From positions 744,001-808,000 of the forward strand of contig NZ_CP064653.1 of the NCBI RefSeq assembly GCF_015711015.1: a stretch of DNA of 64,000 nucleotides, written 5' to 3'. Position numbers and translations under genes: made by a program. The stretch is from Methylomonas sp. LL1 (GTDB lineage: Bacteria; Pseudomonadota; Gammaproteobacteria; Methylococcales; Methylomonadaceae). Under the pieces are notes generated by a model. It had not been told where the DNA came from. It did not search any database and was given only the letters and a program-made list of their open reading frames with translations. Positions 5,030-59,585 of the stretch are shown in pieces. The stretch's first letter is position 1; each line of letters starts with the position of its first letter.

Positions 5030-6256
5030 TTAACGGTTTGGCATCCGGTCGTCGAACTGAATGCTAAACCGATTTAAAGCCGCTTTCCAGTCATGCAATG
5101 GCATGGTCCATTTTTTACTGATATTCATCAGCGCCAGATAAAACAGTTTCGATAATGCCTCGTCATTGGGGAAAGAGCCACGATTTTTGGTGATTTTCCT
5201 CAGGCTCATATTGACCGACTCAATGGCATTGGTGGTGTAGATGATTCGGCGTATTTCCGGCGGATAGTCGAAAAACGGGATGACCCGACTCCAGTTACGC
5301 CGCCATATCTGGGCAATCGAAGGATAATCGCCATTCCATTGTGCCTCGAACTCAGCCAATTGCTGCTCGGCTTCTGCAACGGTAGCCGATTGATAAATCC
5401 GCTTGAGGTCATCGGCAATCCGTTTGCGCATTTTCCAATTGACATAGTTCAGGCTGTTACGCACCAGATGGACGATGCAAAGCTGAACGGCGGTTTGCGG
5501 ATAAACGGTTTCGATGGCTTCGGGAAACCCTTTCAGCCCATCGACACAGGCGATAAAAATGTCCTGCACGCCGCGATTTTTCAGTTCGGTGACCACCTGT
5601 AACCAGAACTTAGCCCCTTCGGTTTGGGCGATCCATAACCCCAGAACTTCCTTCTCGCCATTCAGATTGATACCAATCGCCAGATAGACGGCTTTGACCC
5701 GCACAGCGCCGGTATCGCGCACTTTGACGTGTATGCAGTCGAGATAGACAATGGGATAAACCGGTTCCAGCGGGCGCGATTGCCAGGTTTTAACTTCATC
5801 GGCTACCGCATCGGTGACCGAGGAAATCAACGAAGGCGAAACCTCGGTGCCATACAGCTCTTCCAGATGACTCTGAATTTCTCGGACCGTCATTCCACGC
5901 GCATACAGCGAAATGATCTTGTCGTCGAAGCCAATCCAGCGCGTTTGATGTTTGGCGACGATTTGCGGCTCGAAGCTGCCATGACGGTCACGCGGAATCT
6001 CAATCGGTAATTCGCCGAAGTCGCCTTTCAGGTTTTTTCGGCTTTTGCCATTACGGGCATTGCCACTCGGATTGGTGATGGGGTCATGCTTGGCGTGGCC
6101 CAGATGTTCGGTCAGTTCGGCTTCCAACGCACGTTCCACCAGCGCCTTGGTTAATTGCTTCAACAGACCGTTTTCACCAATCAGGTCTTCGGGTTTTTGA
6201 TAACCCGATAGCAAGGTATCGAGCAATTCGGTTGGGATGGATTTTAATACGGTCAT
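5030..6256 (-). CDS. IS256-family transposase
   Basis: A 408-residue DDE (mutator-type) transposase that cuts and rejoins the element's ends. Candidate catalytic acidic residues lie in VYLDCIHVK, ACVDGLKGFPEA and TTNAIESVN, the normal IS256 positions. The cysteine/histidine C-x-x-H-L-x-R-N-S-L-N-Y-V motif of the family is also present. The ATG at 6256 has a strong AAGGAG ribosome site. The longer frame to 6307 would start inside the inverted repeat and is not used. The reading frame is full length with no frameshift, so it is probably active. Confidence 0.95.
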   Translation of the reverse strand: MTVLKSIPTELLDTLLSGYQKPEDLIGENGLLKQLTKALVERALEAELTEHLGHAKHDPITNPSGNARNGKSRKNLKGDFGELPIEIPRDRHGSFEPQIVAKHQTRWIGFDDKIISLYARGMTVREIQSHLEELYGTEVSPSLISSVTDAVADEVKTWQSRPLEPVYPIVYLDCIHVKVRDTGAVRVKAVYLAIGINLNGEKEVLGLWIAQTEGAKFWLQVVTELKNRGVQDIFIACVDGLKGFPEAIETVYPQTAVQLCIVHLVRNSLNYVNWKMRKRIADDLKRIYQSATVAEAEQQLAEFEAQWNGDYPSIAQIWRRNWSRVIPFFDYPPEIRRIIYTTNAIESVNMSLRKITKNRGSFPNDEALSKLFYLALMNISKKWTMPLHDWKAALNRFSIQFDDRMPNR

Positions 6257-6295
6257 TTTTGCTCCTTTAAGGATCGGCAGTTTCCCGCCTAATGG

Positions 6296-6323
6296 CCGTT
6301 TACACAAAAATTCTTACACCCTC
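6296..6323. repeat. Right terminal inverted repeat of IS256-family element
   Basis: Read on the minus strand it begins GAGGGTGTAAG and ends TTTTTGTGTAAACGG. It pairs with 4996-5023 at the other end of the element. Confidence 0.88.
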
Positions 6324-6331
6324 TTGGGGGT
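6324..6331. repeat. Target-site duplication, right copy
   Basis: TTGGGGGT, identical to 4988-4995. Its last base is also the last base of the stop codon of the leftward Fae-like gene. Confidence 0.88.
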
Positions 6332-6879
6332 TAGATTTTACCGTCCAAACCCATTTGAAAATATTTGTGAGTGATCTTGTCCTGGTTTTCCAATAGCCAG
6401 TCTATATCCGGAGCATGGGTCATGGCTTTGTGTATGGCTTGCGCCATGGCTTTACGATGAATATCAAACAAAATCCGGTGATCCAGGCTGTCGTCCTTGA
6501 TGACACTGGGATTGAGCCAAACCGAGCAAATAATCCCCAGATCGTTGGCTTTTTCCTTTGGAATATCGCCCGCGCGGACCGCATCCAGTACGCCGTTGGC
6601 TATCGCCGCTTGCACCGTACCCATCAAAATATTGGTATAGCGGCTGTTTTTAACCGTGACCTTACTGACCATTAGCGTCACCGGTCTGACTTGGATGTCG
6701 GTGTTTAACAGCGCAAACACCCGGCTGTGGCCTTTAACCTGGTCACCGGTCAGTGTTGCCAACGCCACGCCCACTGGACCATCGAGTTCGCCGATAATGA
6801 CTTCAGGCTCCGCCGCGGTACCCGGTGGCCCTCCGGCTACCAAGGCTTCACCCGTTCGCATGATGATTCGATTACTCAT
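6331..6879 (-). CDS. Formaldehyde-activating enzyme (Fae) paralogue
   Basis: A 182-residue cytoplasmic Fae-family protein. Authentic Fae condenses formaldehyde with tetrahydromethanopterin in methylotrophs. Family marks are GEALV near the N-terminus, HSRVFALLN, RPVTLMVSKVTV and a central A-x-x-x-GVLDAV segment. The stretch that normally holds the catalytic histidine (canonical E-V-A-H-I-D-L) reads A-A-E-P-E-V here, so the histidine appears replaced by glutamate. The C-terminus is also unlike canonical Fae. It therefore resembles the Fae2/Fae3-type homologues of unclear activity. The start at 6879 has a GGAG ribosome site. An IS256-type element sits directly at its stop codon. Confidence 0.8.
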   Translation of the reverse strand: MSNRIIMRTGEALVAGGPPGTAAEPEVIIGELDGPVGVALATLTGDQVKGHSRVFALLNTDIQVRPVTLMVSKVTVKNSRYTNILMGTVQAAIANGVLDAVRAGDIPKEKANDLGIICSVWLNPSVIKDDSLDHRILFDIHRKAMAQAIHKAMTHAPDIDWLLENQDKITHKYFQMGLDGKI

Positions 6880-7091
6880 ATATTCTCCAGGATTAATTTT
6901 TTTTATTCCCGCCGCTTGGGCGGATTGAAAGGAAAACTTACTATGTAGCGGATAACAGTACAACCGTTGATTCCGGTTTGATTGAATAAAATAGGCGCCA
7001 ATTTCCGCCACGTCGACCTTGTGTTGAAGCGCCATCATACTTTTTGCACATTCGCAAACAATACTAAAACATTCGATTAACGAGCCGCGCC

Positions 7092-11520: not shown

Positions 11521-13305
11521 TCATTCCGTTCGGAACTTCGCTGTCTCGCGCCTGACGTCTTCCACCGCCGACAGCAAGCGCTCCGAAAGCAGGTTGAGGT
11601 CGCGGGAAATATTCGCCGCTTGTTCCGCGTCCTGGGCGGCATCGCCGACACTAAAAGCAATGCCGTCGGCGAGACTGTCCTGCTCGATGGCGGAGCGTTT
11701 GACCTCCTCGATCTGCCGGAAGACGCTTTCGATACGAGCCTCCGCTGAATCGAGTTGATGCGCCGTGGCTCCCGAGGCATCGGCCACCGCCCGCATCAGG
11801 GAATTGGTGTCCTTCATGGTCTGGTTGGCGTTGGCTATGCCCTGGTTGAAACCGATCAGTATGTCATTGATCGATTGGGTTAAGGTGGTAGTGTTGGTGG
11901 CCAGGTTGCGCACCTCTTCGGCGACCACGGCAAAGCCGCGGCCGTGCTCGCCGGCGCGCGCCGCTTCGATGGTCGCATTCAGCGACAGCAAATTGGTCTG
12001 GTCGGCGATTTGATCGATGTGCCGTAACTGTTCGGCGACGGCGTGGGATTTTTCGATGATCTCGCCCATATTCCGCGAGGCAACGCTGATCTTGTCGACG
12101 ACTTGCAGGGTTAATTCCTGGTTTTTGTCCGAGGCCGCGCTGGATCGGCTCAACTCACCCATGACCTCGGTCATCGCGCCATGAATGTCTTGCACGTTAT
12201 GCGTCACCTGCGCCGATGAATGTTTCAGGTCGACGGCGTTACCGGCGGCGGTCTGCATGCGTTTGGCGATACGCTGATTGTTTTCCAGCATGCTACGGCT
12301 CTGCGAAGAGACTTGATTGGAAGCTTGGCCGACGACCAGCATGCGTGCCTTGACTTCGGTGACGATGGTGTGGATTTTGGCCAGGAACTGGTTGAATAGC
12401 CGCGACATCAGGCTCATCTCGTCGTGGCCGGACTCGTCGAGTTTGGCCAACAGGTTGCCTTGGCCCTGCGTCAGATCGTCGAAACCGACGATCAGACGGT
12501 CCAGAGGCCTAAATACCATCAAGCGCAAGACGATGATCATGACGATGACGACCGGGATCAAAACCGAGAGCACCGAAGCGGTGATGGTCAGCAAATTATC
12601 CCGGCGTTGTTCGGCACTGAAACGGTTACTGAGCACTACTTCCAGGTAGCCCGACGTTTCGCCGTTTTTCCAGTTGGCGTGGCAATGAACGCAGTCTTCG
12701 TTAGCCACCAGTTTTTGGATGAAACGCGGATTGCCGGTGCCGTCAACCATCGTGGCGCGGCCGTTGGCATCGAAAGCCATATCCTTGTCGAGTCGATAGT
12801 GGCAAGTGCTGCAAGGCTGGCCGGCTTCCTCCCTGCTTTTGATATGGGCCTTGGCGGCCGACGTTTCGTGGAGGTCGCGCAGATTCCAATCCTCCCGTTC
12901 GTAGCGTCCGGCCGTGGCGTCGTGGATGCCAAGATTAGGGTTGATGAATTGGCCGCCTTCATGGACAAAGGGTTTGCCGACGGTGACGACGCCGGACTTG
13001 TAAATCATCATCCCAATACGCGAATACAGTGCCGCGCTTTCGACTTCCGAATTCTGGGTGATGTTGTCGAGTGCTTGCTGGAAGGAGTTGCGTTGGCCTT
13101 TGTTGATGGATTCCTTGCTGTTTTCTATCAGCGTATCGAGTATGCCTTCGCCGCTTTGTTCCACCTGATGTTGCAGCTCAAAATTCTGCCATTGGTAAAG
13201 CAGGGTCAGCGCCACCAGTAATACCGCGCCAATGCCAAGCCCCAAGAAAAGCATCGCCCGAAACAGAATGGATTGAGAACGCTCGATGCGCCTATCGGAA
13301 TGCAT
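11521..13305 (-). CDS. Methyl-accepting chemotaxis protein with diheme c-type periplasmic sensor domain
   Basis: A 594-residue chemoreceptor. TM1 is about residues 17-37. A periplasmic domain of about 200 residues carries two c-type heme motifs, CSTCH (165-169) and CVHCH (205-209). TM2 is about 238-262, followed by HAMP and a signalling domain whose hairpin tip has [38 protein letters not shown]. The heme motifs lie on the periplasmic side, where cytochrome c maturation acts, so a DUF3365-like redox or gas sensor is likely. It starts 54 bp after the hydrogenase small-subunit gene on the same strand, probably as the last gene of that operon. The link to hydrogen oxidation is an inference. Confidence 0.88.
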
Positions 13306-13359
13306 GTTGCCGCCTTACTAAAACGCGAATATTGCTAAAAAACGAAAACCGGCTCGGTT

Positions 13360-14277
13360 TCACGAGTCCTCCGAGACACCCTGAGGGTCGCTTGCAATAT
13401 GAAACATGACCCGGCGCGGAAAGTGTTCGCTTGCACAGCCAATACAGGGGTGGCCGGCGCGGATGCAGATATTGGTATTGCCGTTGTGACCGATGATTAG
13501 GCAGTCGTTGCGGGTCAAAGGGCCCTGGCAGCCCAGTTTAAGCAAACAGCCCGCGTCGCCGATGTAGCGCGCATAGTGCTTTTCCTGGAAGTCGGCGTAA
13601 AAGATGCAGTGTTCGTGCACGGTGCGATCGAAAAACTTGAGTGGCCGCCCCTTGCTGTCGGTGCTCGGAAAACTGCCTTTATAGGCATAATGCAGCAAGG
13701 TGTAAACCAGGTGCTCGGGCTTGAGCGGGCAGTTGGGCAGGTTGATGACCGCTTGCGTGATGCCCTTGCGCGCATAAAAGGCATCGAGCGGAATAGAGCC
13801 GGTTTCCATGCCTTTCATGTTGGTGACGCCGCCGAACACGGCGCAAGTTCCTATCCCCACGGAGGCTATCGCCTTGCTGCCGAGTTTTTCCACCCAATAG
13901 GTAATCGGCTGATCGGCCATCAGGCAGGCGTGTGGCATCGCGGTCGGAATACCGCCCTCCAGCACGAACAGATACGGCATGCCGCTAGCCGAGACTTTGT
14001 CGAGGATCTCGGTAACCTGATCGCCGGTGGCCAGCGACAAATCGGGGTGAAAGATCAGGTTGGCGAACTTGGTCAGAATGTCGAGTACCGAGACATCTTC
14101 GATGTTCAGAAAGCTACATGAGCATCCGCTGCACGAACTGGCGTGCAACCAGACCAAGTTGATGCGCTTGTCCGGGTTGGCATCGGCGGCCAACAAGTCT
14201 TCGAATGACAGGAAACTGCTGGCGCCGGCGGCAACGATGGCCAGCCAGATGGTTTTCAGAGCTTCGCGGCGATTCAT
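13360..14277 (-). CDS. [NiFe]-hydrogenase small subunit, Tat-exported
   Basis: A 305-residue iron-sulfur subunit. The N-terminus has a twin-arginine signal (MNRREALK then a hydrophobic stretch), so it should be exported with its partner. Cluster ligands are recognisable: the proximal region C49-S-G-C52-S-C54 plus GTC and LPNCPLKPE, a distal HEHC and AGCLLKLGC, and a medial NDC...CIRAGHPCIGC. The extra Cys54 is unusual. There is no C-terminal membrane helix, and no cytochrome b gene lies beside it. The start at 14277 has an AGGAGG ribosome site, 16 bp after the large-subunit gene. Its natural electron partner may be the diheme chemoreceptor downstream. Confidence 0.9.
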   Translation of the reverse strand: MNRREALKTIWLAIVAAGASSFLSFEDLLAADANPDKRINLVWLHASSCSGCSCSFLNIEDVSVLDILTKFANLIFHPDLSLATGDQVTEILDKVSASGMPYLFVLEGGIPTAMPHACLMADQPITYWVEKLGSKAIASVGIGTCAVFGGVTNMKGMETGSIPLDAFYARKGITQAVINLPNCPLKPEHLVYTLLHYAYKGSFPSTDSKGRPLKFFDRTVHEHCIFYADFQEKHYARYIGDAGCLLKLGCQGPLTRNDCLIIGHNGNTNICIRAGHPCIGCASEHFPRRVMFHIASDPQGVSEDS

Positions 14278-14293
14278 GATGGCCTCCTGGGGA

Positions 14294-15847
14294 TTAGTGC
14301 ACGGAACAAGCCATGCAGGGATCAGTGGAGCGGATGATGCGGGCCAGTTCCATGGGATTATCGGCATCGGCGACGCGCGTACCGATCAGCATTTTTTCGA
14401 CCGCGCCTGGCCGGCCGCTGGCATCCCGTGGCGACATGTTCCAGGTGGTGGGCACGATCATTTCATAATTCTTGATCAGGCCTTTATCGTCGGTTTCTAT
14501 CCAATGCGCCAGCGCGCCGCGCGTGGCTTCGGTGAGGCCGACCCCGCTGGCGTTGCGTGGCAGGGAGCGCTCGATGAAGCCGGATTCTTCCGGGACGACT
14601 TGTTCGAGTTGTTCCTCGAGTTTTTCCAGGGTCACCAGCGCGCTGACCAAGCGGGACAAGTGACGCCCCATCACCGAGTTGTAATCGTGTATAGTCAAGC
14701 CCAGCGCATTGTTGTATTTGTCGACCCTCTGGGTCAGCGCGGGATTGCTCTTGGCAAAATAGGTGTTGACGACACGGGCAACCGGGCCCACTTCCATGAT
14801 CTCGTTGCCGTAGCGCGGCGCCCGCGTCCAGGTGTATTTGCCGCCTTCCTTTTTCTTTTCGCTCAGGTATTCTTCGTAGCCGAGCGGATGCAGATTATTC
14901 AATTGCAGAGGTTTGATGGTCTTATCGGGTTTTGCCGTGTAGTAGGCATAAGTGTGATCCTCGGTGATTTTGCCAATATCCAGCGCCGCGTATTGACCAT
15001 TGATGGTGGCGCCGCCGGTGAAGCTGTGATCCTTGCCGTTGCGATCAATCAGCCAGGGATAAGAGAGCAAATTGCCGTAGCCGCGTCCTTCCTTGAAATA
15101 GCCTGGGAAGGCCTTGGCGACGCCCAATACGTCGTTCTGGAAATTGTTGCGGATGAACTGGCCAGCTTGACCCAGCCATTGCCGGTAGCGCGCCAAACGC
15201 TCTATGGTCGGCATCGTGGTTACGCCGCCGGCTTCGATGGCGACCGGATGTGGCGCCTTGGCGCCGAATATGGCGACCATCTTATGCAAGGTAGACATCA
15301 TCGGTAAGGCACCGAGATAGTTTTGGATCACCGTCAGATTCAGTTCGCGGTCGTCGCTGTAGGCGGCTTGATAGCGCGGCAGAAAAGGGGATGCCGGAAA
15401 CACCTTGCCGCTATTGAGCTCTTGCCCTATCCAGTCTTTGAGTTGCAACATGCCGGCATCCCGCCCTTGGTAGCTGGTGATGGCGGTAACATCGATAAAG
15501 TCCAGCGCGCACAGCGCGTAAAAATGAAGCAGATAATCGTACAGATGATAGGCGCCAACGGTCAGGTTGCGCAGCAAGCGGCCGTTTTCGTTGATCTGCA
15601 GGCCCATGGCCGACTCCAGCGCGCGCGCGGCGGCATCGGCGTGCGCATAAGGACAAACGCCGCAAACCCGTTGGGTAATCTGTTGCGCGGTACGGGCATC
15701 GTAGCCTATCAAGGCCTTTTCGATACCACGGTACATATCCCCCGAGCATTTGCTGTCGACCACGATCCCGTCTTCCATCCGCGTCTCGAAACGCAAATGC
15801 CCTTCGATCCTTGTCATCGGATCAACGACTACTCGTCTTGCTTCCAT
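14294..15847 (-). CDS. [NiFe]-hydrogenase large (catalytic) subunit without C-terminal extension
   Basis: A 517-residue catalytic subunit with the two nickel-binding motifs: L1 RVCGVCPYAH (Cys62, Cys65) and L2 DPCMACSVH (Cys511, Cys514). The protein ends exactly at the L2 histidine. Most respiratory large subunits carry about 15 further residues that a dedicated endopeptidase removes after nickel insertion; sensor-type HoxC/HupV and CooH lack them. It is the first gene of the leftward operon, with large before small, the reverse of the common order. The ATG at 15847 has an AGGAGA ribosome site. No hyp maturation genes are in the window. Subgroup assignment is left open. Confidence 0.9.
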   Translation of the reverse strand: MEARRVVVDPMTRIEGHLRFETRMEDGIVVDSKCSGDMYRGIEKALIGYDARTAQQITQRVCGVCPYAHADAAARALESAMGLQINENGRLLRNLTVGAYHLYDYLLHFYALCALDFIDVTAITSYQGRDAGMLQLKDWIGQELNSGKVFPASPFLPRYQAAYSDDRELNLTVIQNYLGALPMMSTLHKMVAIFGAKAPHPVAIEAGGVTTMPTIERLARYRQWLGQAGQFIRNNFQNDVLGVAKAFPGYFKEGRGYGNLLSYPWLIDRNGKDHSFTGGATINGQYAALDIGKITEDHTYAYYTAKPDKTIKPLQLNNLHPLGYEEYLSEKKKEGGKYTWTRAPRYGNEIMEVGPVARVVNTYFAKSNPALTQRVDKYNNALGLTIHDYNSVMGRHLSRLVSALVTLEKLEEQLEQVVPEESGFIERSLPRNASGVGLTEATRGALAHWIETDDKGLIKNYEMIVPTTWNMSPRDASGRPGAVEKMLIGTRVADADNPMELARIIRSTDPCMACSVH

Positions 15848-26009: not shown

Positions 26010-27650
26010 ATGCAGTTAATCCACACCCCATTGGCAAGGACATTGTTCCTATTGACATGCAGTGTAGTCGTTCCGGTTGGCGAAGCCTGGAGTCAGGAGG
26101 TCGAAGCGGAAACCGGTACGCAAGAGCAGCAATCGAACAACGCTGCTGCACCGGCGACTTTCGACATGCTGGAATTGCGGGTCAAGGGCAATAGCTTGCT
26201 CGATAAAAAGCAGCTGGAGCGCACGGTTTATCCTTTTTTGGGTCCGAAAAAAAGCATCGACAATGTGGAGTCGGCCCGCTCCGCCTTGGAGGAACTGTAC
26301 CGCAATCAAGGTTATCAGACCGTTTCCGTGGATATTCCGGAACAGGATGTCAAAAACGGAGTGGTTTACTTGCAGGTGGTGGAAGGCAAGGTTTCGCGCT
26401 TGCGGGTCAAGGATTCGCGCTATTTTTCGCTGGGAAAAATCAAGGCCGGCGTACCGGAACTGGCGGAAGGCAATGTGCCCAATTTGCCGAAAATGCAGAA
26501 ACAGCTGGCCGAACTGGCTGGGGAAAGTACGGATAGGCAAATCGTACCGGTTTTACGCGCTGGCGAAACGCCGGGCACACTGGAAGTCGATTTGAAAGTT
26601 AAGGACGAACTGCCGTTACATGGCAAAGTGGAATTGAACGGCCGCAATACCGCGACAACCTCGCGCTTACGCTTGGTGTCTTCGCTGCGATACGACAATC
26701 TATGGCAGCAAATGCACAGTGCATCATTGATGTATCAGGTCTCGCCCGAAAACAACGAAGAAGTGGATGTCTGGGCCGGTACCTATGCGATGCCGCTGTT
26801 CGATGACGGCACCCGGTTGGCGGTATATGGGGTCGGATCTTCGTCAACATCTCAGATAGCCAGTGCCGGCGCATTGTCGGTGATCGGTATCGGTAATATT
26901 TACGGTGCCCGTCTGGTCAAGCCTCTAAAACCGTTAACGAATTATTTTCATAGCGCAACGCTGGGCGTCGATTACAAGGATTTTCAGGAAGATTTGGCCT
27001 TAATTGGCTCCGATAGTTTGAAAACCCCGATTACCTATTTACCCTTCACGGCGCAATACAGCGGAACGGCGAAGAACGCGGAATCGATGACTACATTCGA
27101 TCTAGGCATGCATTTTTCGGTTCGTGGCTTGGGTAACGATCAAACCGAGTTCGAGAACAAGCGTTATAAGGCCAAGGCTAATTACATTTACCTGACCGGC
27201 GATTTGAAGCATCAGCATAATTTGCCGTTGGGCATGGAACTGGTTGGCCGGTTTTCCGGCCAGGTGGCGGATACGCCCTTGATCAGTAACGAACAATTTT
27301 CGCTGGGTGGCGCTCAAAGCGTGCGCGGTTATTTCGAAACTCAATCCCTGGCCGATGACGGGGTGTTCGGTTCGCTGGAACTGTACTCGCCGCATTTGGG
27401 TATGACTGACTGGGACTATCTTGACCAACTGAAGGTGCTGGCCTTTTTCGATGCGGCCAAGGGCTGGATCAAGGAAGCGTTGCCCGGCAATTCCAAGGGT
27501 GATTTTTTGAGCAGTGCCGGCGTGGGTTTGCATTTCCAGTTATGGAAACACTTGAGTGGCGGATTGGATGTGGGCTTCCCCTTCACCTCGCTGGAACCGG
27601 TCAAGAGCGGCGATCCCAAGGTGCATTTTAATATCGCTACCGAGTTTTAG
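26010..27650 (+). CDS. Two-partner secretion transporter (TpsB, ShlB/FhaC family)
   Basis: A 546-residue outer-membrane pore that exports the adhesin encoded next. It has a signal peptide (about residues 1-28), POTRA-type domains (VKGNSLLDKKQLERTVYPFLG..., RNQGYQTVSVDIPEQDVKNGVVYLQVVEGKV) and a 16-strand barrel region ending in phenylalanine. The family's loop-6 motif is present as SLGGAQSVRGY. It lies 257 bp upstream of the giant TpsA gene in the same direction, the usual order for such pairs. Confidence 0.92.
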   Translation: MQLIHTPLARTLFLLTCSVVVPVGEAWSQEVEAETGTQEQQSNNAAAPATFDMLELRVKGNSLLDKKQLERTVYPFLGPKKSIDNVESARSALEELYRNQGYQTVSVDIPEQDVKNGVVYLQVVEGKVSRLRVKDSRYFSLGKIKAGVPELAEGNVPNLPKMQKQLAELAGESTDRQIVPVLRAGETPGTLEVDLKVKDELPLHGKVELNGRNTATTSRLRLVSSLRYDNLWQQMHSASLMYQVSPENNEEVDVWAGTYAMPLFDDGTRLAVYGVGSSSTSQIASAGALSVIGIGNIYGARLVKPLKPLTNYFHSATLGVDYKDFQEDLALIGSDSLKTPITYLPFTAQYSGTAKNAESMTTFDLGMHFSVRGLGNDQTEFENKRYKAKANYIYLTGDLKHQHNLPLGMELVGRFSGQVADTPLISNEQFSLGGAQSVRGYFETQSLADDGVFGSLELYSPHLGMTDWDYLDQLKVLAFFDAAKGWIKEALPGNSKGDFLSSAGVGLHFQLWKHLSGGLDVGFPFTSLEPVKSGDPKVHFNIATEF

Positions 27651-27907
27651 AAGGTTTTGTTTTGGGGGATTTACCGGGGTGACCGGTGGCCCGGAAACCG
27701 GGTCGATTCAAGGGTATGGAGTTCGCCTCTCCGAAATTACACAGGGTGCCATCGCGTCAGCGTTTAGCACCATTACAAACAGATCGTTTCGATGTGTCGA
27801 CGCCAAACCCGTTGCGAGGCGGGGAGGGCAAGCCGAGGGTCTTGAAATCTCAAGGCGGCCTGGTTAGCGCATACAGTCAAGATTAAACATTGAGTAAAGG
27901 CAGCAGT

Positions 27908-30900
27908 ATGGTCAGTAGAAGGCAATCAAACATAATTCATTCATCGGACATTCGTTTTCGCTTGAAACCCCTGGTTGCGGGTATGCGTATCGTAGTGGCC
28001 GGCGGTATGTTCGTTGGCGCCGTTGCCCGTGCTGAATTGCCGATACCCGCTCAGGCATGGGTTAGCTCCGGTAGTGCCACCAATCAAGTGTTGGGGAATA
28101 CCTTGCGCATTGATCAGCAAACCGATAAAGCCATACTCAACTGGGAAAGCTTCAATGTCGGCCAGCAAAATGTCGTTCAGTTCGTACAGCCGAACGCCAC
28201 CTCAATTGCGCTTAACCGGATTCAGCAGCAGGACCCTAGCCGGATATTCGGCCAAATCATCGCCAACGGTCAGATTTATTTGTATAACAAAAACGGTTTC
28301 GTGTTTGGCAAGGATTCGGTGGTCAATGCCAACAGTGTGCTGGCCAGTACCCTGAATATTACCGATGAAGTATTCAATCGCGGCATTACCAGGGTCTTCG
28401 ACGAGGATGGGCGCGCGGCGCTGGCGGTTGATGGCGCTTTTGATGCTAGCACCTCGAAAATATTGATCGAGGCCGGCGCCAAGATCAACGTGGATAAGGC
28501 TGGCCGGATCATCCTGGCGGCACCGACCATCGAAAATAAAGGTTCCTTAACCGCCGATGCGCAAGGTCAAATCATCATGGCAGCCAGCCAGGACAAGGTT
28601 TACCTACAGGCCGCCGATAGTGAAAGCCCGTTTGCAGGATTAGTGGTCGAAGTCGAAACCGGCGGCAAAGTGACCAACGCCGGCGATATTTTGGCGCGCC
28701 AGGGCAACGTGACGTTGGCCGGTTTTGCGGTCAATCAGCAAGGCCGCATTAGCGCGACGACTTCGGTTAGCGTGAATGGTTCGATTCGGCTGTTGGCGCA
28801 AGAAAAACACGATACCGTGGGCGGCAAATTGGTGGGAACCAAAACCACCCGCGATAACGATTTGGGCGATGGTTTGGGCACCGAGGCCAAACTTAATTTT
28901 GCCGGCGGCAGTGTCACTCAGGTGGTCGCCGATAGCGATGGCGGATCGGCGATCGACGAACAGGAACAACCTCAATCCTATATCGAGGCTAGCGGCCACA
29001 CAGTCAGCATGCAATCCGGTTCCGCCATCGTGGCGCCGGCGGGCAAGGTCAATATTACCGCTACCGATAAACCACAAAGTCCCTTGCAAGGCACGAGCGG
29101 CCGTATTTTCATGGATACTGGAGCCGTAATCGATGTCTCGGGTTCAGCCAATGTGGCGGTTCCGATAGAACGCAATGTGGCGGAAATCTCGGTGCAAAGT
29201 TTTGAGCTGCGCGATGCGCCCTTGCAAAAGACCGGGCCGTTGAAGGGCGAGACCGTCAAAATCGACTTGCGCAAAGGCAGTAAAATAGTAGACACCAGTG
29301 GCGCCGAATCCAGGATTAGCCGCAGTATCGAGGAGCGGCTGGGTACCGGTGGTGAAATCAATCTGACATCGAGCGGCGACGTGGTGATAAACAGTGGCGC
29401 TAAAATCGACATATCCGGAGGATCGGTCGATTATCAGGATGGCTATATCAGCACCACCAAGTTATTGACCGAATACGGACGTGTCGTCGATATCAGTGAT
29501 GCCGATCCCAATGAACGATATGTGGGCATCTTTGGTATTGTCAATGAGGATCATGAGAAATGGGGCGTGTACAAGGAATGGAACATCCTCGACCAATTCG
29601 CCTCGGCCCAATTCGAAGCCGGTTATGCGGAAGGTCTAGCAGCCGGTAGTCTGAATATCAAGGCGCCCAATTTAGCCTGGAATGGGCGGTTGATCGCCGG
29701 TTCGGGCAATGGGATTTATCAGCGCCGGCCCGGTAATCGGGCCGATGGCGGGCATTTTTTGTTCGATTCGACCGCCTTCGTGACCGCGCTGCAAAAGGTA
29801 CGGTTTCAGACCGACAAAAACAGCCTCGATATAGGCCAGGATGAGCCGTTTCCGCAAGATCAAGAAGATCAGCCGCAAGCCTTGATATTGTCGACTGAAT
29901 TAACCAATCGCTCGGAAGTCCAGCATGTGCTGATCAAAACCCTGGCGGAGGTCGAAGTGGCGGCCGATGCCAATATCAACATGGTGCCGGGCGGCGAATT
30001 CAACATTCAGGCCGCCGGCATCGATATACAAGGGAAGGTGCATGCGGCCGGCGGTGAAATTACGCTGGCAATCGCCGATTCCCTGGCCGAGTTGAATCTG
30101 GGCGAAGGTTCTGAACTGGATGTAGCGGGCCAATGGGTTAACGATTATATGCTGGGTTATACCCAAACGCCGACCGATTCTTTATATGTCGATGGCGGCA
30201 AGGTCAAAGTCAATTCGGTGGGTGACCTATATTTGCGCGCGGGCGGTAAAATCAACGCCGACGGTGGTGCATGGTTGGCACAGAACGGTAAATTGACGCC
30301 GGGCAAGGGCGGTAGTATTGAATTGATCGCCGATGGACAGGGTTTTGCCAGCCCAAGCCGCTTGCATCTGGACGGAAGCCTGTCGGCGGCGTCGTTAAGC
30401 GAAGGAGGCACACTAACCCTGGGCAGTGCGGAAATCGTCGTGGGTGATGGCGTAGCCAAATCAATCGATCCATTAAGGCTTGGGGTCAGCAATGGCCGAT
30501 TCGATTTCGATCAGGACGGTGGTTTTGCCGAAATCAATTTGATAGGTAACCTGGAAGGTGTCACGGTTTCCGAAGGTACGGAACTGAACCTAAAGACCGC
30601 CAATTTGCTGCTGGATGATGACTATAGAGACCATGCCAGCGGTGACCGTCCGCGCGACTTTGCCCAAATGACCTTGCTGGAAGAGCATTTGCGTTCCGGC
30701 AATAGCCTGAATCTGTTGGGACGCGGCGATGTCATTTTGGCGACCGGTAGCACGGTGACGATGGATACACAAGGTAGCGTTGGCTTGGTTTCCTCCCAGG
30801 GTGGTGTCTATGTCGACGGTAGCATCAATACGCCGGGCGGTAGTATTCGTCTAGCGATAGAATCCTCCGCTAACGCCGAATTCGATGATAGCCAAAGTGT

Positions 30901-33900
30901 TAGGCTTGGCCCGAACGCACGCTTACTGGCGCGGGGTGCTACCCGTCTGAATCCTCCGGATAGCTTGGGCCGGCAAACCGGCGAAGTCCTGGACGGCGGC
31001 CTGGTTAGCTTTGATTTGCAACGCGGCAGCCTGATTTTCGAGCAAGGATCATTGGTGGACGTTTCCGGCACCCATACCGTGTTGGATTTACCCAAGCAAG
31101 GCGATAGCGCCGACATCACCACCCCAACCCAGGTATTTGGCGATGCCGGCAAGGTTGACATCTCGGTGGCCGAAGGCGCGGTTTTCGACGGCAAGATCAT
31201 TGGTCTGGTCGGCTCGGATAGTGCGCGCGGCGGTCGGTTTTCGTTTGCGTTGGATCGGACCCGGCGATCGCCGCCCCAGGAACCGGTGGCGCCTTTTCCC
31301 AATAACCCGCTGGTGGTACGGCTCAGAAACGACCAGGAACCGCTATTCGATAGCGATGTTGAGTTCGGCGAGAGCATACCAGAGGTGTACGAGGGGCAGG
31401 GCTTCCTTTCGGCCAGCATGTTACAGGATGGAGGGTTTACCGACATTCGGTTGAAATCCCCCGATACCATTCGTTTTGAAGGTAATGTGACTTTAAACGC
31501 CAAGGCGCGTATCGATCTGGATGCGGCGGTCATTGACTGGGTGGGGTTGAATGGCGAGGCGAACGGTGTGGTTAATCTGAATAGCGCATTGATTCGGATG
31601 GGGTCGAGTCTGCAGCGCGAAGTTAGCGGATTACCGGCCACCGGTGCGGCGATTTTTACCGCCCAAGCTAAATGGATTGAATTGTTCGGCGCTACGCGTT
31701 GGGATAAATTCAACGCCATCAGCTTGAATAGCGCTTACGATTTGCGCACGGTCGGTTTGCGCTTCGGCGCCCAGCGCGAGTTTCTAGGCGCGATGGTGAC
31801 GGCCGCCAACCTGAACCTGAAGGCCGGTCAAATTTATCCGAGTACGCTGAGCAAGTTTACTTTTGCAGTCAGAAACAATGTGCTAGGCCGAATCAATATC
31901 TCATCCAGCGGCAATAGCGTTGAAACGCCGCTGTCGGCGGCGGGTAGCCTGAATTTCGAAGCCTCGGCGATAGAGCAGGGTGGCGTGATCAGGGCTCCGC
32001 TAGGCGTCATCAATCTGACCGCGGCCGATCATCTAACCTTGCACAATGGCAGCCTGACCTCGGTATCCGGTCAAGGACTGATTATTCCATTCGGCGTGAC
32101 TCAAGCCGGACTGGATTGGTTGTATCCACTGGATAGCATTCGCAATTTAGTCTTTAACACGCCGCCGGAGAAAAAACTGGTTCTAAACGCGCCGGAACTG
32201 ATTTTGGAAAAAGGCAGCACGGTTGATGTTTCCGGTGGAGGCGATTTATATGGTTACGAATTCTTGCCGGGTTCCGGTGGTTCGTATGACTATCTCAATA
32301 CCGGTAGCCAGTCATATCAAGGCGGCTTTGCCATTTTGCCAAGTCTGGGTTCGGAACTGTCGCCTTTCGACCATTACGAATACAACACCCTCGGCTGGTC
32401 GCGCGAAATCGGCAGCAAGGTCTATTTGAGCGGTGACAATGATATGGGCTTGGCCGCCGGCGAATATACCATCCTGCCGGCGCACTATGCCTTACTGCCG
32501 GGGGCATTTCTGGTAACGCCGCAAACCGGTACGCGGGATCAAACGATTACGACATTCAATACCCAGGGTTTGCCGATAGTCACCGGCTATTATACCGAGG
32601 CTGGAGCCGGTACCCGCGACGCGCGCCGAACCGGCTTTCGTATCGAAAACGGTGCCGACGTGCGTTTACGCTCGGAGTACGAAGAGCACTTGGCCAACGA
32701 TTATTATCCGGCACAGGCCTTGAAAAACGAGACCGTGGCGCCGTTCTTGCCGATGGACAGCGGCCAGATTTCGCTCGTGGCTCAGAATAAACTGGTACTG
32801 GAAAGCACTTTCATGGTCGATGCCCTCGCGGGTGGTCGCGGCGCTAGAATGGATATAGCCGCCGATAAGATTCACGTGGTCAGTGGTTTGAGTCAATCGC
32901 CGCAAACCGGGGTTTTGGAAGTGCTGGCTAGCGATTTGAACAATCTGAGCGTGGATAGTTTGATGCTCGGTGGTGATCGCGCGCGTAGCGCCAGTACCGG
33001 CGAAACCGATATTACGGTGAGGGCGGAAGAAGTGATCTTCACTAGCGGCACTCGTCTCGGCGTCAAGGATTTGATTGCAGTGGCGACCGATAAGGTCGAG
33101 GTACAAAGCGGCGCGGCGTTATCGGCCCAAGGTCCGGTCGACACGGGTGACAGGGTTCTTAATGTTACTGGCGACGGGGCCTTACTGCGGTTGTCGGGCG
33201 ATGAGCAAATAACGTTGAACAGAAGCAATGCGGACGAAGTAAATGGTCAATTGATCATTGCCGCCGGCGCGACACTGTCGGCTTCGGATTCGATGTTGTT
33301 GGATGCCACTGATTCGACCATTTTACAAGGCGACATTTTGATGAGCCAAGGTTCGTTGAGTCTGAGCGCCAAAAGAATCAATCTGGGCGAGGTCGACAAT
33401 CTGGGGGGGAATGCGCTGAATCTGTCCAATCGCAAATTGCTGAATCTGTCGGTGGATGAATTGATTCTGTCGGCCCGGGATAGTATAGGAATTTACGGTA
33501 ATCTAGGCCTACAAGAAGCGGTTGCTTTCAAGCGCTTAGTTATCGACAGCGCCGGTTTCACCGGGCACGGCCAGTCCGGCAACCGAGGGCGAATCCAGGC
33601 CGATACCCTGCGTTTGCAAAACAGCCGAGGCGTCTCCAGTCAGCAGGTTGCGGATGGGTTGGGTAGTTTCGATTTGATCGGCGACAACATTGAATTCGGT
33701 AGCGGTAACCTGGTTATGCAAGGCTTTGATGCCGTCAACATTCTGGCCGGCAAGCAATTGCGCGCCGACGGCATTAGCGTATTGGACATTAGGACGGATT
33801 TGAATCTATCCACCCCGGTACTGACCGCGTCAGGCGGCGCCGATTTGACTATCGATTCAACCGGGTACAATGTTCAATTTAATGCGTTGTCTTCCACCGA

Positions 33901-36900
33901 GGAAGTCGCCAGTGGTTTTGGTGCCGCGTTGTCGGTGATTGCCGACAGTATTGCTTTTAACACCCGGGTCTTGCTGCCGTCGGGTCGATTGAGCCTTCAT
34001 GCCCTATCCGGCGATGTCAGCTTGGGCGGTCAAGCCGAACTGGATTTGGCGGGGCGGGCGGTCAAGTTTGCCGATATTTACGATTACACGCCGGGCGGCA
34101 ATTTTACCGCCGTCTCGGATCACGGTAAGGTGATATTGGCGGCGGGTTCCCTGGTCGATCTCGACAGCGGCGGCGGCAATAGTGCCGGGGGGCTGTTGAA
34201 ATTGCAAGCGGCCGAGCAATCGCTGGTGTTGGCCGGTCAAGTCCAAGCCAGGGCCGGTAGTGCCTATGTCGAAGTCGACGGTTTCAGCGCCGGCATCGGT
34301 TTTGATGCCCTGATGCAAACGCTGTACGGTGCCGGTGTTAACCAATCGGTTTATTTTCGATCTCATAGCGCTGATATCGCACAGGGTGCAAACTCCATCA
34401 TCAACGCGCATGACATAACGCTGGTGGCGGATAGCGGCGCGATTGATTTATCGGGTAGTCTGAATGCCAACGGCGGCAGTGAAGGTGGAACAATTGCTTT
34501 ATACGCCGGTGACGGCATTACCTTGAGCGACGGCGCGAGTCTGACGGCTAAAGGCGATAAGGGCGGCAAGGTATTGTTGTCGTCAACCGACAGCGACAAC
34601 GACACTATCGGAGGTATCGACATCAAAGCCGGCTCGTTGATCGATGTCAGCGGCAATACCAACGAGCAGGGCGGCGAAGTCACCTTGCGCGCTTTACGTG
34701 ACGGTAACGGCATCAAGATTCAGCCGATTGCAGGCAACGTGCAAGGTTTTGCCCAACGGAATGCGGTTTACGACGACAGTAACAACTTGGTTGAATACGG
34801 CTACAGCGAGTTTTTCGCCGAAGGGGTTCTGAAATATATCGATGCTAATGGTTTGCTGACCAGTGATGACTATGCGGCAATAAAAGCCGATACCGACGCT
34901 TACATGACGGCCGGCAATATGCAGGCGGTGACGGCATTATTGGGAGCCCGATTGCGGGCCGGGGTCGAAGTCGATTACAACGGTAATTTAACCGTCAGCG
35001 ATCGTTGGGACTTGGCCGATTGGCGTTATAGTGACGGTAGCGATTTGGTGATGATGCCGGGCACGCTGACTATCCGCGCCGGAGGAGACCTGCGTTTCGA
35101 CCAGTCGCTGACGGACGGTTTCAAGGATGGGGTGATTTCGTCGATATTCGGCGATATTCCGTTTAGCGATATGCTGCAAGCCGGTGCCTCCTGGTCTTAC
35201 CGCCTGACCGCCGGCGCCGACTTGAGCAGCGCCGATATAGCCGCCACCGGCACGATCGGTAATCTAAAAGTCGGCTCGAATACCGCGATACGTACCGGTA
35301 GCGGCGACATGCAACTGGTTGCCGGCGGCGACATCGAGTTGGCCGATGCCAGTTCGACGATCTACAACGCCGGCCGTATTGCCGATAGCAATCCTTACGG
35401 CAGCCTGGCGTTGCATATGGCAATCGGATCAGCCCCTTATGTCTATTATCCGGTTGACGGTGGCGATCTGCTGCTTCGGGCCGGCGGCGATATTAAAGGC
35501 GCCAATACCAGCCAGTTTATCAACGATTGGTTGATCAGGCAGGGTAGCGCGGATTTCGTCACGGATCAGCCGTATCTGCTGCCGGTCGCACAGACTTTGG
35601 AGTCGCTGAAAAACGACGCGGCCGGATTGGCGGCCTATAAGGCAAGTTTGCCGGCCGCGGTTCAGGCCCGCATCGTCGACGGTTATCGACTCGATTCACG
35701 GGCCTATGCCGAACCGACCAGTTGGGGATTGTTGCTAACTAATTTCCAACAAAATATCGGTTCGTTCGGCGGCGGCGATGTGACTATCAGCGCCGGTAAC
35801 GACATCGTCGACTTATCGGTGATGATGCCGACTACCGGCAAACAAACCGGCGATCCCGCCTTCGATCCGAATAATCCCGAAACTCTGGCATTGTTCAGCA
35901 ATAGCCTGGAGATCAGTGCCAGCGGCGACATGCGGGTGGCAGCCGGCGGCGATATCAAGGGCGGCGCCTATTTAATCGGTCAAGGCCAGGCTAGTTTGGT
36001 GGCGGGGGGCGAGATTGGCGGCGGTAGCCAATTTAGCACCGGTCCGCAGCTGTTGCTGGGCGACGGTCAAATCAGCCTGTTGGCCAACCGGCAATTGAGC
36101 GTGGCCGGGGTGTCGGACCCGATGATTCTGCACGGTGGCGAAACCAACTTCTTTAGTTATACCGACGATAGTGCAATTGCCGCGCGTTCGTTATCCGGCG
36201 ATGTGCATTTAGGTGCCAGTATTGCCGCGATTGCACCGATTCTGAATCCGGGCAGTAATCAAACCGCCTTGGCCCAAGTTTATCCCGGCACGTTGGCGGC
36301 GACCGCGTTTGGCGGCAGCGTGGTACTCGATAGCGACCTGGTGTTGTTCCCGGCGCCGCTCGCGAATGTCAATATATTGGCCGAACAGGATTTCAAATCA
36401 CAAGGCGCGGCCAGCCGTCTGGCGATGTCCGATGCCGATCGCGGCTTGCTGCCTACTGCATTGACACCATTGGCGCGCAGTAATATGAGCGATGCCAGTG
36501 CCAGAATCAATCCGTTCGGTCTGGCCAGTTTTGTGCATGCCGCCACGCCGGTTCACGCCGACGACACCACGCCCGTCAGATTGGTGGCACGGACCGGCAA
36601 TATCGAAAATGTCCAGATCAATTTGGCGAAAAAAGCACTGGTACAGACCGGCAACGATTTCAAGAACACTTTGTTATGGATTCAACACGCCAACGCCGAC
36701 GACGGCACTGTATTCGACATTGGCCGCGATTTGAAATACACCAGTAATCGAGATGTCAATGGTCAGTTAGCGCCGAACATCAATGAAATCAAAGTGGCCG
36801 GCTCGGGTGAAGTGCTGATCAAAACCGGCCGCCATCTGGATTTGGGCGCTGCGGTCGGAATTTCGACGGTCGGCGACTTGGGCAATCCCGCCTTGGCCGA

Positions 36901-57512: not shown

Positions 57513-59585
57513 ATGTCAATCGATATGGCGCAATTTCATCAGGTATTCTTCGAGGAAAGTTTCGAGGGCCTGGATGCGATGGAGTCCGGTTTGCTCAATC
57601 TTGACATGGGCGATGTAGATGCCGATGAAATCAATACCATTTTTCGAGCGGCCCACTCGATCAAAGGCGGTAGTGGAACTTTTGGATTTACCGCGGTTTC
57701 CGACTTTACCCATGTGATGGAAACCTTGCTGGATGAGATGCGCGATGGACGCAGGCAAGTGACTCAGCCGGCGGTGAACGTCTTGCTGGGTTCGGTCGAT
57801 TGCCTGAGAGAAATGTTGCAAGCCATTCAGAATGGCGGAGAGATCGACCGGCAAACTGTCGATATACATAAGCGGGCTCTGGACCGGGAGCTAAATCATG
57901 CCGCTAGCGCCGGCGAAAATGCATCCTCGGAAATTGATCAGGTTGCGTCCGCGCTAAGCGTTTCACGGCATCCATCGGATAGTGCCGAACAGATTTGCGG
58001 ATGGTCGATTGCCTTTAGCCCTCATCTGCATTTACTGAAAACCGGAAACGAGCCGGTCAGAATGTTCAGGGAGTTGGCAACCCTGGGTGATTTGACCGTG
58101 ACCGCCGACTTGCATGGGCTTCCCGACATTTATCAGTTGGACCCAGAAGAATGCCATCTTTCATGGAAGCTGGATTTACAAGGCGATGTACCGGCCAGCG
58201 AGATTGATGAAATTTTCGATTGGGTGGAGGACGATTGCGATTTAGCCAAACAACCGGTTTTTTCGTCGGTAAATGCCGAACTAGGTCCGCTTGTGGCCGA
58301 ACCCGCTACAAACCTCGCCGAACCGGTTGCCGCTCCATCGGTTCAAACTCGTCCCGAATCGGTTACGGCGGAAGTCAAGGAACCGAAAAAAGACGAGCAA
58401 AAAGCCCCGGCGAAAAGCTCCAGTTCAATCCGGGTGGATACAAGTAAAATCGATACCTTGATCAATATGGTCGGCGAATTGGTGATTACTCAGTCCATGC
58501 TGAGTCTGGTCGGCGAGCATTTTGAACTGAGTAAGCTCGATCAGCTGAAAAACGGCCTTTCGCAACTCGAACGCCACACGCGTGAATTGCAAGAAAGCGT
58601 GATGAATATACGCATGTTGCCGATCAGTTTTGTGTTTAGCCGTTTTCCGCGCTTGGCGCATGACATTAGCAGCAAACTGGGCAAAAAGATTGAACTGAAA
58701 TTGGTGGGTGAACATACCGAGGTGGATAAAACCGTGGTGGAGTTGCTCAGCGATCCCCTAGTGCATCTGGTCAGAAATAGTCTGGATCATGGCATTGAAA
58801 TGCCGGACGTGCGTGTCGCCGCCGGCAAGCCGGAAACCGGCACCGTGACGCTGGAAGCCTATCATCGCGGTGGTAATATTGTGATCGAAGTCAGTGATGA
58901 CGGTAAAGGTTTGGATAAGGACAAACTTAAAGCCAAAGCCATCGAAAAAGGCCTGATCGAGCCCGATGCCATTCTGACCGACAAGCAAACCTTCGAACTG
59001 ATTTTCATGCCGGGTTTTTCCACCGCCGAAAAGCTCACGGATATTTCCGGCCGCGGCGTAGGCATGGATGTGGTAAGGCGCAATATTCAGGCTTTGGGGG
59101 GCAATATCGAAATTATTTCTACCCTGGGGAAAGGCTCGACTATTTCGATACATCTGCCATTAACCCTGGCGATTCTGGATGGGCAATCGATAGCCGTTGG
59201 CGACGAAACCTATATCGTACCGCTGGGTTCCATTATCGAGTCGCTGAATATCAAGGAAGACAGGGTCAATCGGGTAATAGGCAAGGGCGAGACTTTTTTG
59301 TTGCGGGGCCAATATCTGCCAATCATACGCATGCACGAAATTTTCAATGTCACTACGGCTAAACACACCAAACTCTCGGAAGGTCTGTTGGTGGTGGTGG
59401 AAGGGCAGGGCGTGCGTTGCGGCTTGTTTGTGGATGATTTGTTGGGTCAGCAGCAAGTGGTGATCAAATCGTTGGAGGCCAATTACCGCCGGGTTGAAGG
59501 TGTATCGGGGGCAACCATACTGGGCGATGGCTCGGTGGCGCTCATTCTTGATATACCCGGTTTAGTTCGCTTGGCAAACCAGTAA
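57513..59585 (+). CDS. cheA: CheA chemotaxis histidine kinase
   Basis: A 690-residue kinase. P1 Hpt domain with His48 in AAHSIKGGSGTFGF; a P2-like region (about 160-250); P3 dimerisation (VDTSKIDTLINMVGELVITQSML); P4 ATPase (HLVRNSLDHGIE N-box, DDGKGL, FMPGFSTAE, GRGVGMDVVRRNI); P5 CheW-like domain (about 545-690). Two CheW genes sit downstream. It phosphorylates CheY and depends on the chemoreceptors encoded next and elsewhere. Confidence 0.95.
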   Translation: MSIDMAQFHQVFFEESFEGLDAMESGLLNLDMGDVDADEINTIFRAAHSIKGGSGTFGFTAVSDFTHVMETLLDEMRDGRRQVTQPAVNVLLGSVDCLREMLQAIQNGGEIDRQTVDIHKRALDRELNHAASAGENASSEIDQVASALSVSRHPSDSAEQICGWSIAFSPHLHLLKTGNEPVRMFRELATLGDLTVTADLHGLPDIYQLDPEECHLSWKLDLQGDVPASEIDEIFDWVEDDCDLAKQPVFSSVNAELGPLVAEPATNLAEPVAAPSVQTRPESVTAEVKEPKKDEQKAPAKSSSSIRVDTSKIDTLINMVGELVITQSMLSLVGEHFELSKLDQLKNGLSQLERHTRELQESVMNIRMLPISFVFSRFPRLAHDISSKLGKKIELKLVGEHTEVDKTVVELLSDPLVHLVRNSLDHGIEMPDVRVAAGKPETGTVTLEAYHRGGNIVIEVSDDGKGLDKDKLKAKAIEKGLIEPDAILTDKQTFELIFMPGFSTAEKLTDISGRGVGMDVVRRNIQALGGNIEIISTLGKGSTISIHLPLTLAILDGQSIAVGDETYIVPLGSIIESLNIKEDRVNRVIGKGETFLLRGQYLPIIRMHEIFNVTTAKHTKLSEGLLVVVEGQGVRCGLFVDDLLGQQQVVIKSLEANYRRVEGVSGATILGDGSVALILDIPGLVRLANQ

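Follow-up and report, generated by a model that had tools for sequence, protein, structure and literature searches.

What does a hydrogenase that carries an export signal do beside a chemoreceptor that carries heme motifs? The question is raised by a 64,000-nucleotide stretch of the Methylomonas sp. LL1 genome (NZ_CP064653.1, positions 744,001 to 808,000; here called the window), where genes for a [NiFe] hydrogenase large subunit (LSU), its small subunit (SSU), and a chemoreceptor of the methyl-accepting chemotaxis protein (MCP) type with two CxxCH motifs follow each other on the minus strand, separated by 16 and 54 bp, exactly as described in a prediction made from the bare sequence (Table 1). 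According to this original prediction, electrons from H2 oxidation reduce the hemes of the receptor and bias swimming. The comparative analysis reported here supports that idea better than the sequence alone could, although it is still a genomic prediction. The pair recurs in distant bacterial groups, which suggests that the hydrogenase is the H2-sensing part of the receptor, and we consider it probable, on balance, that the two proteins form an H2-sensing pair.

The gene neighborhood could be read at 17 loci (the window, L033, L035-L040, L043, and L065-L072). The contigs of L031/L002 (a single contig), L032 (= L073), and L041 end at the LSU gene and were excluded, and L034, which is the contig of L043, was counted once. 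The original prediction had named the absence of a conserved neighborhood in relatives as an argument against itself; in fact, a diheme sensor gene adjoins the hydrogenase at 15 of the 17 loci, which come from Gammaproteobacteria, Campylobacterota, and SAR324-like bacteria. The order LSU-SSU-sensor is collinear at 13 of these 15; in L040 the sensor gene is immediately upstream in the same orientation, and in L036 it is divergent. The gap between the SSU and sensor genes is -4 to 21 bp at 11 of the 13 collinear loci, the other two being the window and L067 (296 bp). Contig ends cut the sensor gene in L043 (before the heme motifs) and in L067. No diheme sensor was found at any of 34 conventional hydrogenase loci, most of them available with only about 1.5 kb of flanking sequence.

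Among the 13 complete hydrogenase-adjacent sensors, 12 have an MCP signaling domain as output and the one in L036 has another. These outputs bear on the idea that the membrane-anchored sensor domain serves chiefly to conduct electrons for, or to anchor, an uptake hydrogenase, signaling being secondary. The SSU indeed has no anchor, and the diheme stretch weakly resembles the cytochrome c3/c7 and NapC families (all matches below the cut-offs), but a further cytoplasmic part is present in all 13 sensors and no quinone-linked component was seen adjoining the trio genes in the window, so that we find this explanation quite improbable.

The search for genome-wide co-occurrence of LSU and sensor, which the original prediction had proposed, was carried out with a threshold of E<=1e-110 for the LSU. 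Of the genomes searched, LSU homologs are present in 4 of 369 from Gammaproteobacteria, 8 of 347 from Campylobacterota, and 3 of 52 from the SAR324-like phylum. The sensor, sought with a profile (A2) built from LSU-carrying genomes, occurs in the same 4 gammaproteobacterial genomes, and in the Campylobacterota six genomes have both proteins, two have the LSU only, and one has a full-length sensor only; thus six are shared among eight LSU and seven sensor genomes. Because of the way A2 was built, the informative part of the co-occurrence is the lack of the sensor in the other genomes, and the p values of 1.3e-9 and 8.4e-11 calculated on these counts ignore both relatedness and the selection of A2. 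Weak partial matches (E 2.7e-7 to 8.2e-6) in seven more Campylobacterota genomes, and once more in G560, were left out of the seven; we read them as single-heme sensors. In addition, for 15 of 35 sensor proteins in the database, the longest contig of the genome is equally long as that of a listed LSU homolog (n=120), against 0-2 in shifted controls.

The divergence of the two proteins is correlated as well: LSU and sensor distances over 14 loci give a Mantel r of 0.81 (p 0.0001), which would also be expected from common descent of two linked genes. Since the neighborhood is conserved and the genes co-occur, accidental adjacency with no functional link can be rejected; the short gaps in most relatives and the correlated divergence likewise argue against it, and on the comparative data it is very unlikely, the least probable of the readings considered here. 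What speaks for it is a terminator-like hairpin in the 54-bp gap, which could separate the SSU and receptor transcripts in this genome. Terminator-like sites in the region number 7, with 5.9 expected, and all but the one in the gap are on the plus strand; shuffled versions of the gap fold as well as the gap itself (z -0.19). A plasmid-borne element was ruled out by a tblastn search of 72,556 plasmids, which gave no match at 1e-80.

To which partner, then, could the hydrogenase pass its electrons? The original prediction noted no cytochrome c gene beside the trio, and this holds: the receptor is the sole open reading frame (ORF) of at least 80 residues with a CxxCH motif between positions 3000 and 26000 of the window. 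No other protein with at least two CxxCH motifs was found at the loci of the 16 relatives (those of L043 and L067 being short), other kinds of redox partner not having been systematically searched. Frames with a single CxxCH occur in L036, L040, L066, and L072, that of L072 being HypF. On these grounds we rejected the reading of an ordinary uptake hydrogenase whose cytochrome c partner had gone unseen at the locus.

A subtler alternative is that the hydrogenase feeds the general periplasmic cytochrome c pool, and that the receptor reads the redox state of this pool or a respiratory input (energy taxis), the genes being regulated together and the proteins not docking. Periplasmic hydrogenases commonly reduce soluble c-type cytochromes, and two sensors (L120 and L121) have no adjacent SSU. 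Two papers (PMC12889525, PMC8396549), in their accessible text, also assign redox or NO sensing to single-heme proteins of the related kind that operate with no hydrogenase. Yet the full-length sensor is, with one exception, confined to hydrogenase genomes in two samples, and the loci encode no multi-CxxCH protein besides it. We judge this alternative unlikely, while regarding it as the most serious rival of the H2-sensing pair.

The LSU has PF00374 ([NiFe]) as its only family match and no [FeFe] H-cluster domain, and contains both active-site cysteine motifs (RVCGVC, the N-terminal one, read by eye, and DPCxxC). The closest solved structures to LSU and SSU by sequence are periplasmic [NiFeSe] and [NiFe] hydrogenases, and the NCBIfam model NF033181 gives the LSU 524 bits, below the cut-off of 600 bits. 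In the protein database the LSU family comprises 958 scored proteins at E<=1e-100, called simply hydrogenase large subunit wherever a source names them, with "uptake" in one row. The protein stops at its C-terminal active-site motif, as do 118 of the 120 homologs listed (of the remaining two, one is partial and the other ends SVQ). By contrast, the tail extends 15-23 residues past the motif in all 34 conventional LSUs read from the host and other genomes. No selenocysteine occurs in this motif, cysteine being found in the window LSU and in all 118 tails read. The lack of a C-terminal maturation peptide is the reason why we do not file the LSU as an ordinary group 1a enzyme. In its accessible text, PMC12134894 lists groups 2b and 2d (H2-sensing), 4c, and 4e as lacking this peptide, names no natural group 1 hydrogenase without it, and reports that an engineered peptide-less group 1 enzyme is still active.

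The SSU begins with a Tat-type signal region, and the hydrogenase would be exported to the periplasm; no stretch of the SSU exceeds the hydropathy threshold, hence no membrane anchor was seen. Twelve positions expected to hold Fe-S ligands are invariant in all 17 family members (C49, C52, C145, C183; H221, C224, C244, C250; C259, C271, C278, C281), and from established knowledge of the family we take them to bind three [4Fe-4S] clusters. Residue C271 aligns with a cysteine that, in the [NiFeSe] small subunit, serves as fourth ligand to the medial cluster. The closest LSU relative is 95% identical and is found in a genome of the same genus (Methylomonas, G029). The host genome also encodes a conventional hydrogenase with cytochrome b, a HycI-type protease, HypC, HypD, and HypF, so that maturation enzymes exist, and Hyp genes adjoin the trio itself in L068 and L072. 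Near the trio of L071 (genome G464, 13670-15686) lies a second, very divergent SSU/LSU pair (27% and 22% identity), whose LSU matches PF00374 and also ends at the motif (DICAVCMSH); a gene close to it is HypA-like in our reading.

The receptor has the MCP signaling domain, the HAMP domain, and the transmembrane helices of a chemoreceptor, and its two CxxCH motifs lie between hydrophobic stretches at residues 11-39 and 236-273. Among the 20 MCPsignal loci of the host genome it alone has two CxxCH motifs. Two others have one: L077 is a clear PF11845 protein (102 bits), and L079 has no heme-sensor family match. Aligned by hhalign with nine single-heme sensors, the sensor domain gave a probability of 96.8 and E 2.3e-10, with the CxxCH motif of these sensors in register. 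Both motifs are present in every sensor row that covers them, the first falling in a gapped stretch of the single-heme alignment, and in 33 of the 35 database sensor proteins; the other two are shorter and begin after the first motif. These alignments place the sensor among the kin of Tll0287-like (Cache-type) domains, which have a single heme, and it has gained a second heme motif; this kinship makes a redox input plausible. No PF11845 match at E<=1 was obtained for the receptor or its sensor domain; when five of the nine single-heme sensors were scanned, four matched PF11845 below the cut-off and one not at all. In the AlphaFold2 model of residues 12-268 the second CxxCH sits between two strands, and by structure comparison the predicted fold is similar to that of single-heme c-type MCP sensors; GSU0935, tried as the nearest fold, came only at Foldseek rank 25. 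Both CxxCH motifs would be loaded with covalently bound heme.

The hemes might nevertheless serve another purpose, such as gating by NO or O2, if H2 turnover reshapes the hydrogenase and the receptor feels this change by contact. H2 sensors of the HoxBC type signal to a kinase partner. Moreover, sCache_heme domains fused to signaling modules act like NO sensors, according to the accessible text of PMC12889525. Signaling by contact is improbable, given that no ligand varies anywhere along the electron-transfer chain and that every sensor row covering the two CxxCH motifs retains them.

Output modules vary while the sensor itself is kept. The diheme sensor of L036 (5573-7942, minus strand) has a non-MCP output with a weak receiver match, and its unmatched C-terminal part can be read, in our view, as an RsbW-like ATPase. 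L121 (1283-4669, minus strand), from the Halorhodospira metagenome-assembled genome G062, joins a diheme sensor to a hybrid histidine kinase with PAS, HisKA, HATPase, two receivers, and Hpt. A different contig of G062 holds LSU and SSU genes and the beginning of a sensor gene. In L065 (genome G301), a 112-residue frame downstream of the receptor (13403-13741, plus strand) has an end nearly identical to the receptor C-terminus, as if by partial duplication.

For the H2-sensing pair we propose the following sequence of events. The exported soluble hydrogenase would oxidize H2 in the periplasm and, docked to the neighboring receptor, would pass electrons through the three [4Fe-4S] clusters to heme 1 and on to heme 2. 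The added first heme is probably the entry point; the second, at the site of the sensor heme of single-heme relatives, would be the switch. When it is reduced, its ligand would change and the sensor domain would take another shape; the second transmembrane helix (TM2) and HAMP would relay this signal to CheA and set CheA activity. A CheA-like gene is present in the window at 57513-59585. As electrons would be handed from enzyme to receptor, the enzyme would be the ligand-sensing subunit, whose output the receptor reads. The near-invariant Met100 could be the redox-switched heme ligand, by analogy with Met60 of GSU0935, which is heme-bound in the reduced state and off in the oxidized state (PMC8396549). 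The same source, as far as its text is accessible, gives midpoints of -156 and -251 mV for single-heme c-type MCP sensors with a redox-switched Met ligand, and we infer that such midpoints would be in reach of H2 as donor. The original prediction is partly supported by the conserved neighborhood and the kinship with single-heme sensors; heme attachment, electron transfer to the receptor, and an effect on swimming are its predicted core.

Several observations weigh against a dedicated H2-sensing pair. Sensors without an adjacent SSU exist, namely L120 and L121, the latter being a second sensor of G062 on a contig without an SSU. G560 has a sensor, with no SSU in the 361 nt up to the contig end and no LSU match at 1e-110. 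In the draft genomes G029 (78% complete) and G069 the LSU is at a contig end, and no sensor was found anywhere. The hydrogenase loci of Sulfurospirillum, L037 and L069 (the name being inferred for L069), have no sensor, nor was one found elsewhere in these genomes. There the hydrogenase pair follows genes for a DsbB-like protein, a molybdopterin oxidoreductase, a 4Fe-4S protein, and a NarJ-type chaperone (L037 2824-10482, by Pfam; L069 2165-9803, by the same gene order). Because it follows a molybdopterin oxidoreductase operon, the hydrogenase of this branch may serve respiration. Whether Sulfurospirillum and its surroundings in the tree lost the sensor or it was gained late elsewhere, the rooted LSU tree favors neither course. 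The maturation peptide is also missing from these enzymes that have no sensor, which weakens its absence as a mark of sensing; on this comparison the absence characterizes the family and does not prove a sensing role. To these points may be added the wide gap in L067 and the hairpin described above.

The original prediction further held that no system of this kind had been described. This stands for the pair itself, no description of which was found in a literature search (subscription papers being mostly outside it), but a related idea is in print. Hydrogenases of [FeFe] group C2 are not known to be exported or to have a c-heme receptor. HydDB lists this group as "Chemotactic (putative)", and there, as here, a hydrogenase is proposed to sense H2 via MCPs (PMC5037454, accessible text). 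In contrast, the hydrogenase in the window is a [NiFe] pair whose SSU bears a Tat-like signal, and the receptor beside it is a transmembrane protein with two heme motifs. The [NiFe] enzymes of groups 2b and 2c (the HupUV/HoxBC kind) are cytoplasmic, and their partner is either a histidine kinase or a diguanylate cyclase. As H2-sensing [NiFe] enzymes tied to a signaling protein they resemble the present case, 2c being the diguanylate cyclase-linked group in HydDB (PMC5037454), and 2b shares the absence of the C-terminal peptide (PMC12134894). Here, however, the SSU has a Tat-like signal, the partner is an MCP, and the LSU is much nearer to the periplasmic enzymes of group 1. With group 1a, which includes the [NiFeSe] enzymes (PMC5037454), the window shares the closest structures, the Tat-like signal, the lack of an anchor, and the medial-cluster cysteine, but its LSU lacks the maturation peptide and has Cys for selenocysteine, and its partner is a sensor instead of a respiratory acceptor. 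DcrA, GSU0582, GSU0935, and sCache_heme/Tll0287 (PF11845) likewise have a periplasmic c-heme MCP domain; the predicted fold is similar, and related single-heme domains align with their CxxCH at the place of the second motif. Unlike them, the window receptor has two heme motifs, one without counterpart, and no PF11845 match, and its kind is nearly confined to hydrogenase genomes in our samples. A study of [NiFe] neighborhoods tabulates a cluster of 87 MCP genes that its accessible text does not discuss (PMC12727194). A soluble periplasmic 'NiFeSe' hydrogenase is described in Nautilia profundicola, the accessible text mentioning no receptor beside it (PMC2628731). H2 taxis is on record in the archaeon Methanococcus maripaludis, as cited in the accessible part of PMC4266047.

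One flank of the trio encodes a two-gene histidine kinase/response regulator set, a small protein that matches Metal_resist/LTXXQ weakly, and a secreted protein that has no Pfam match and is hydrolase-like by our own reading. On the opposite flank are an aldehyde dehydrogenase-family gene, which we read as proA, and others that we read as housekeeping genes. Farther away in the window (5030-7038, minus strand), a Mutator-family transposase lies directly downstream of a homolog of the formaldehyde-activating enzyme (Fae), which in the called frame has a long N-terminal extension. On the other side, a c-di-GMP-I riboswitch (Rfam RF01051; 27792-27871, plus strand) is just upstream of a gene for a repeat-rich exported protein of 3369 residues (27890-37999), and an outer-membrane transporter-like gene (26010-27650) precedes it. 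The arrangement suggests to us an adhesin of the two-partner secretion type that is controlled by c-di-GMP.

Table 1. Features of the hydrogenase-receptor locus (positions in the window)
Feature	Positions	Strand	Basis
[NiFe] hydrogenase large subunit (LSU), 517 residues	14294..15847	-	PF00374, 439.8 bits
LSU C-terminal active-site motif DPCMACSVH, then stop, no maturation peptide	14297..14323	-	tail comparison
[NiFe] hydrogenase small subunit (SSU), 305 residues	13360..14277	-	PF14720 + PF01058
Tat-type signal region of SSU, MNRREALK..., about 32 residues	14182..14277	-	by eye; RR start in 17/17 members
Terminator-like hairpin with T-rich tail, SSU-receptor gap	13345..13361	-	terminator-type site search
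Diheme chemoreceptor, 594 residues, TM-sensor-TM-HAMP-MCPsignal	11521..13305	-	PF00015 1.5e-30, PF00672 2.4e-05
Predicted periplasmic diheme sensor domain, residues 46-235	12601..13170	-	alignment A2 of 14 relatives; hhalign; AlphaFold2 model
Met100, near-invariant	13006..13008	-	alignment column at 90% or more
First CxxCH, CSTCH, residues 165-169	12799..12813	-	stretch without counterpart in single-heme relatives
Second CxxCH, CVHCH, residues 205-209	12679..12693	-	aligns with single heme motif of relatives
MCP signaling domain	11638..12099	-	Pfam

Known inputs of chemoreceptors include ligand binding, a bound cofactor, and a signal from a binding protein. If the H2-sensing pair is real, the transfer of electrons from an exported enzyme to its receptor would represent a different mode of input. 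More tentatively, the pair may stand for a class of extracytoplasmic H2 receptors in which an exported redox enzyme is the ligand-sensing subunit and electrons pass via an added relay heme, the output being swimming in some bacteria and a kinase or other response in others; we regard this extension as quite possible without yet calling it probable. We know of no molecular basis of H2 taxis in bacteria, and the pair would be a candidate for it in vent Campylobacterota and methanotrophs, for which H2 can be an energy source. At least part of this large hydrogenase family may be sensors, which matters when H2 metabolism is inferred from genomes.

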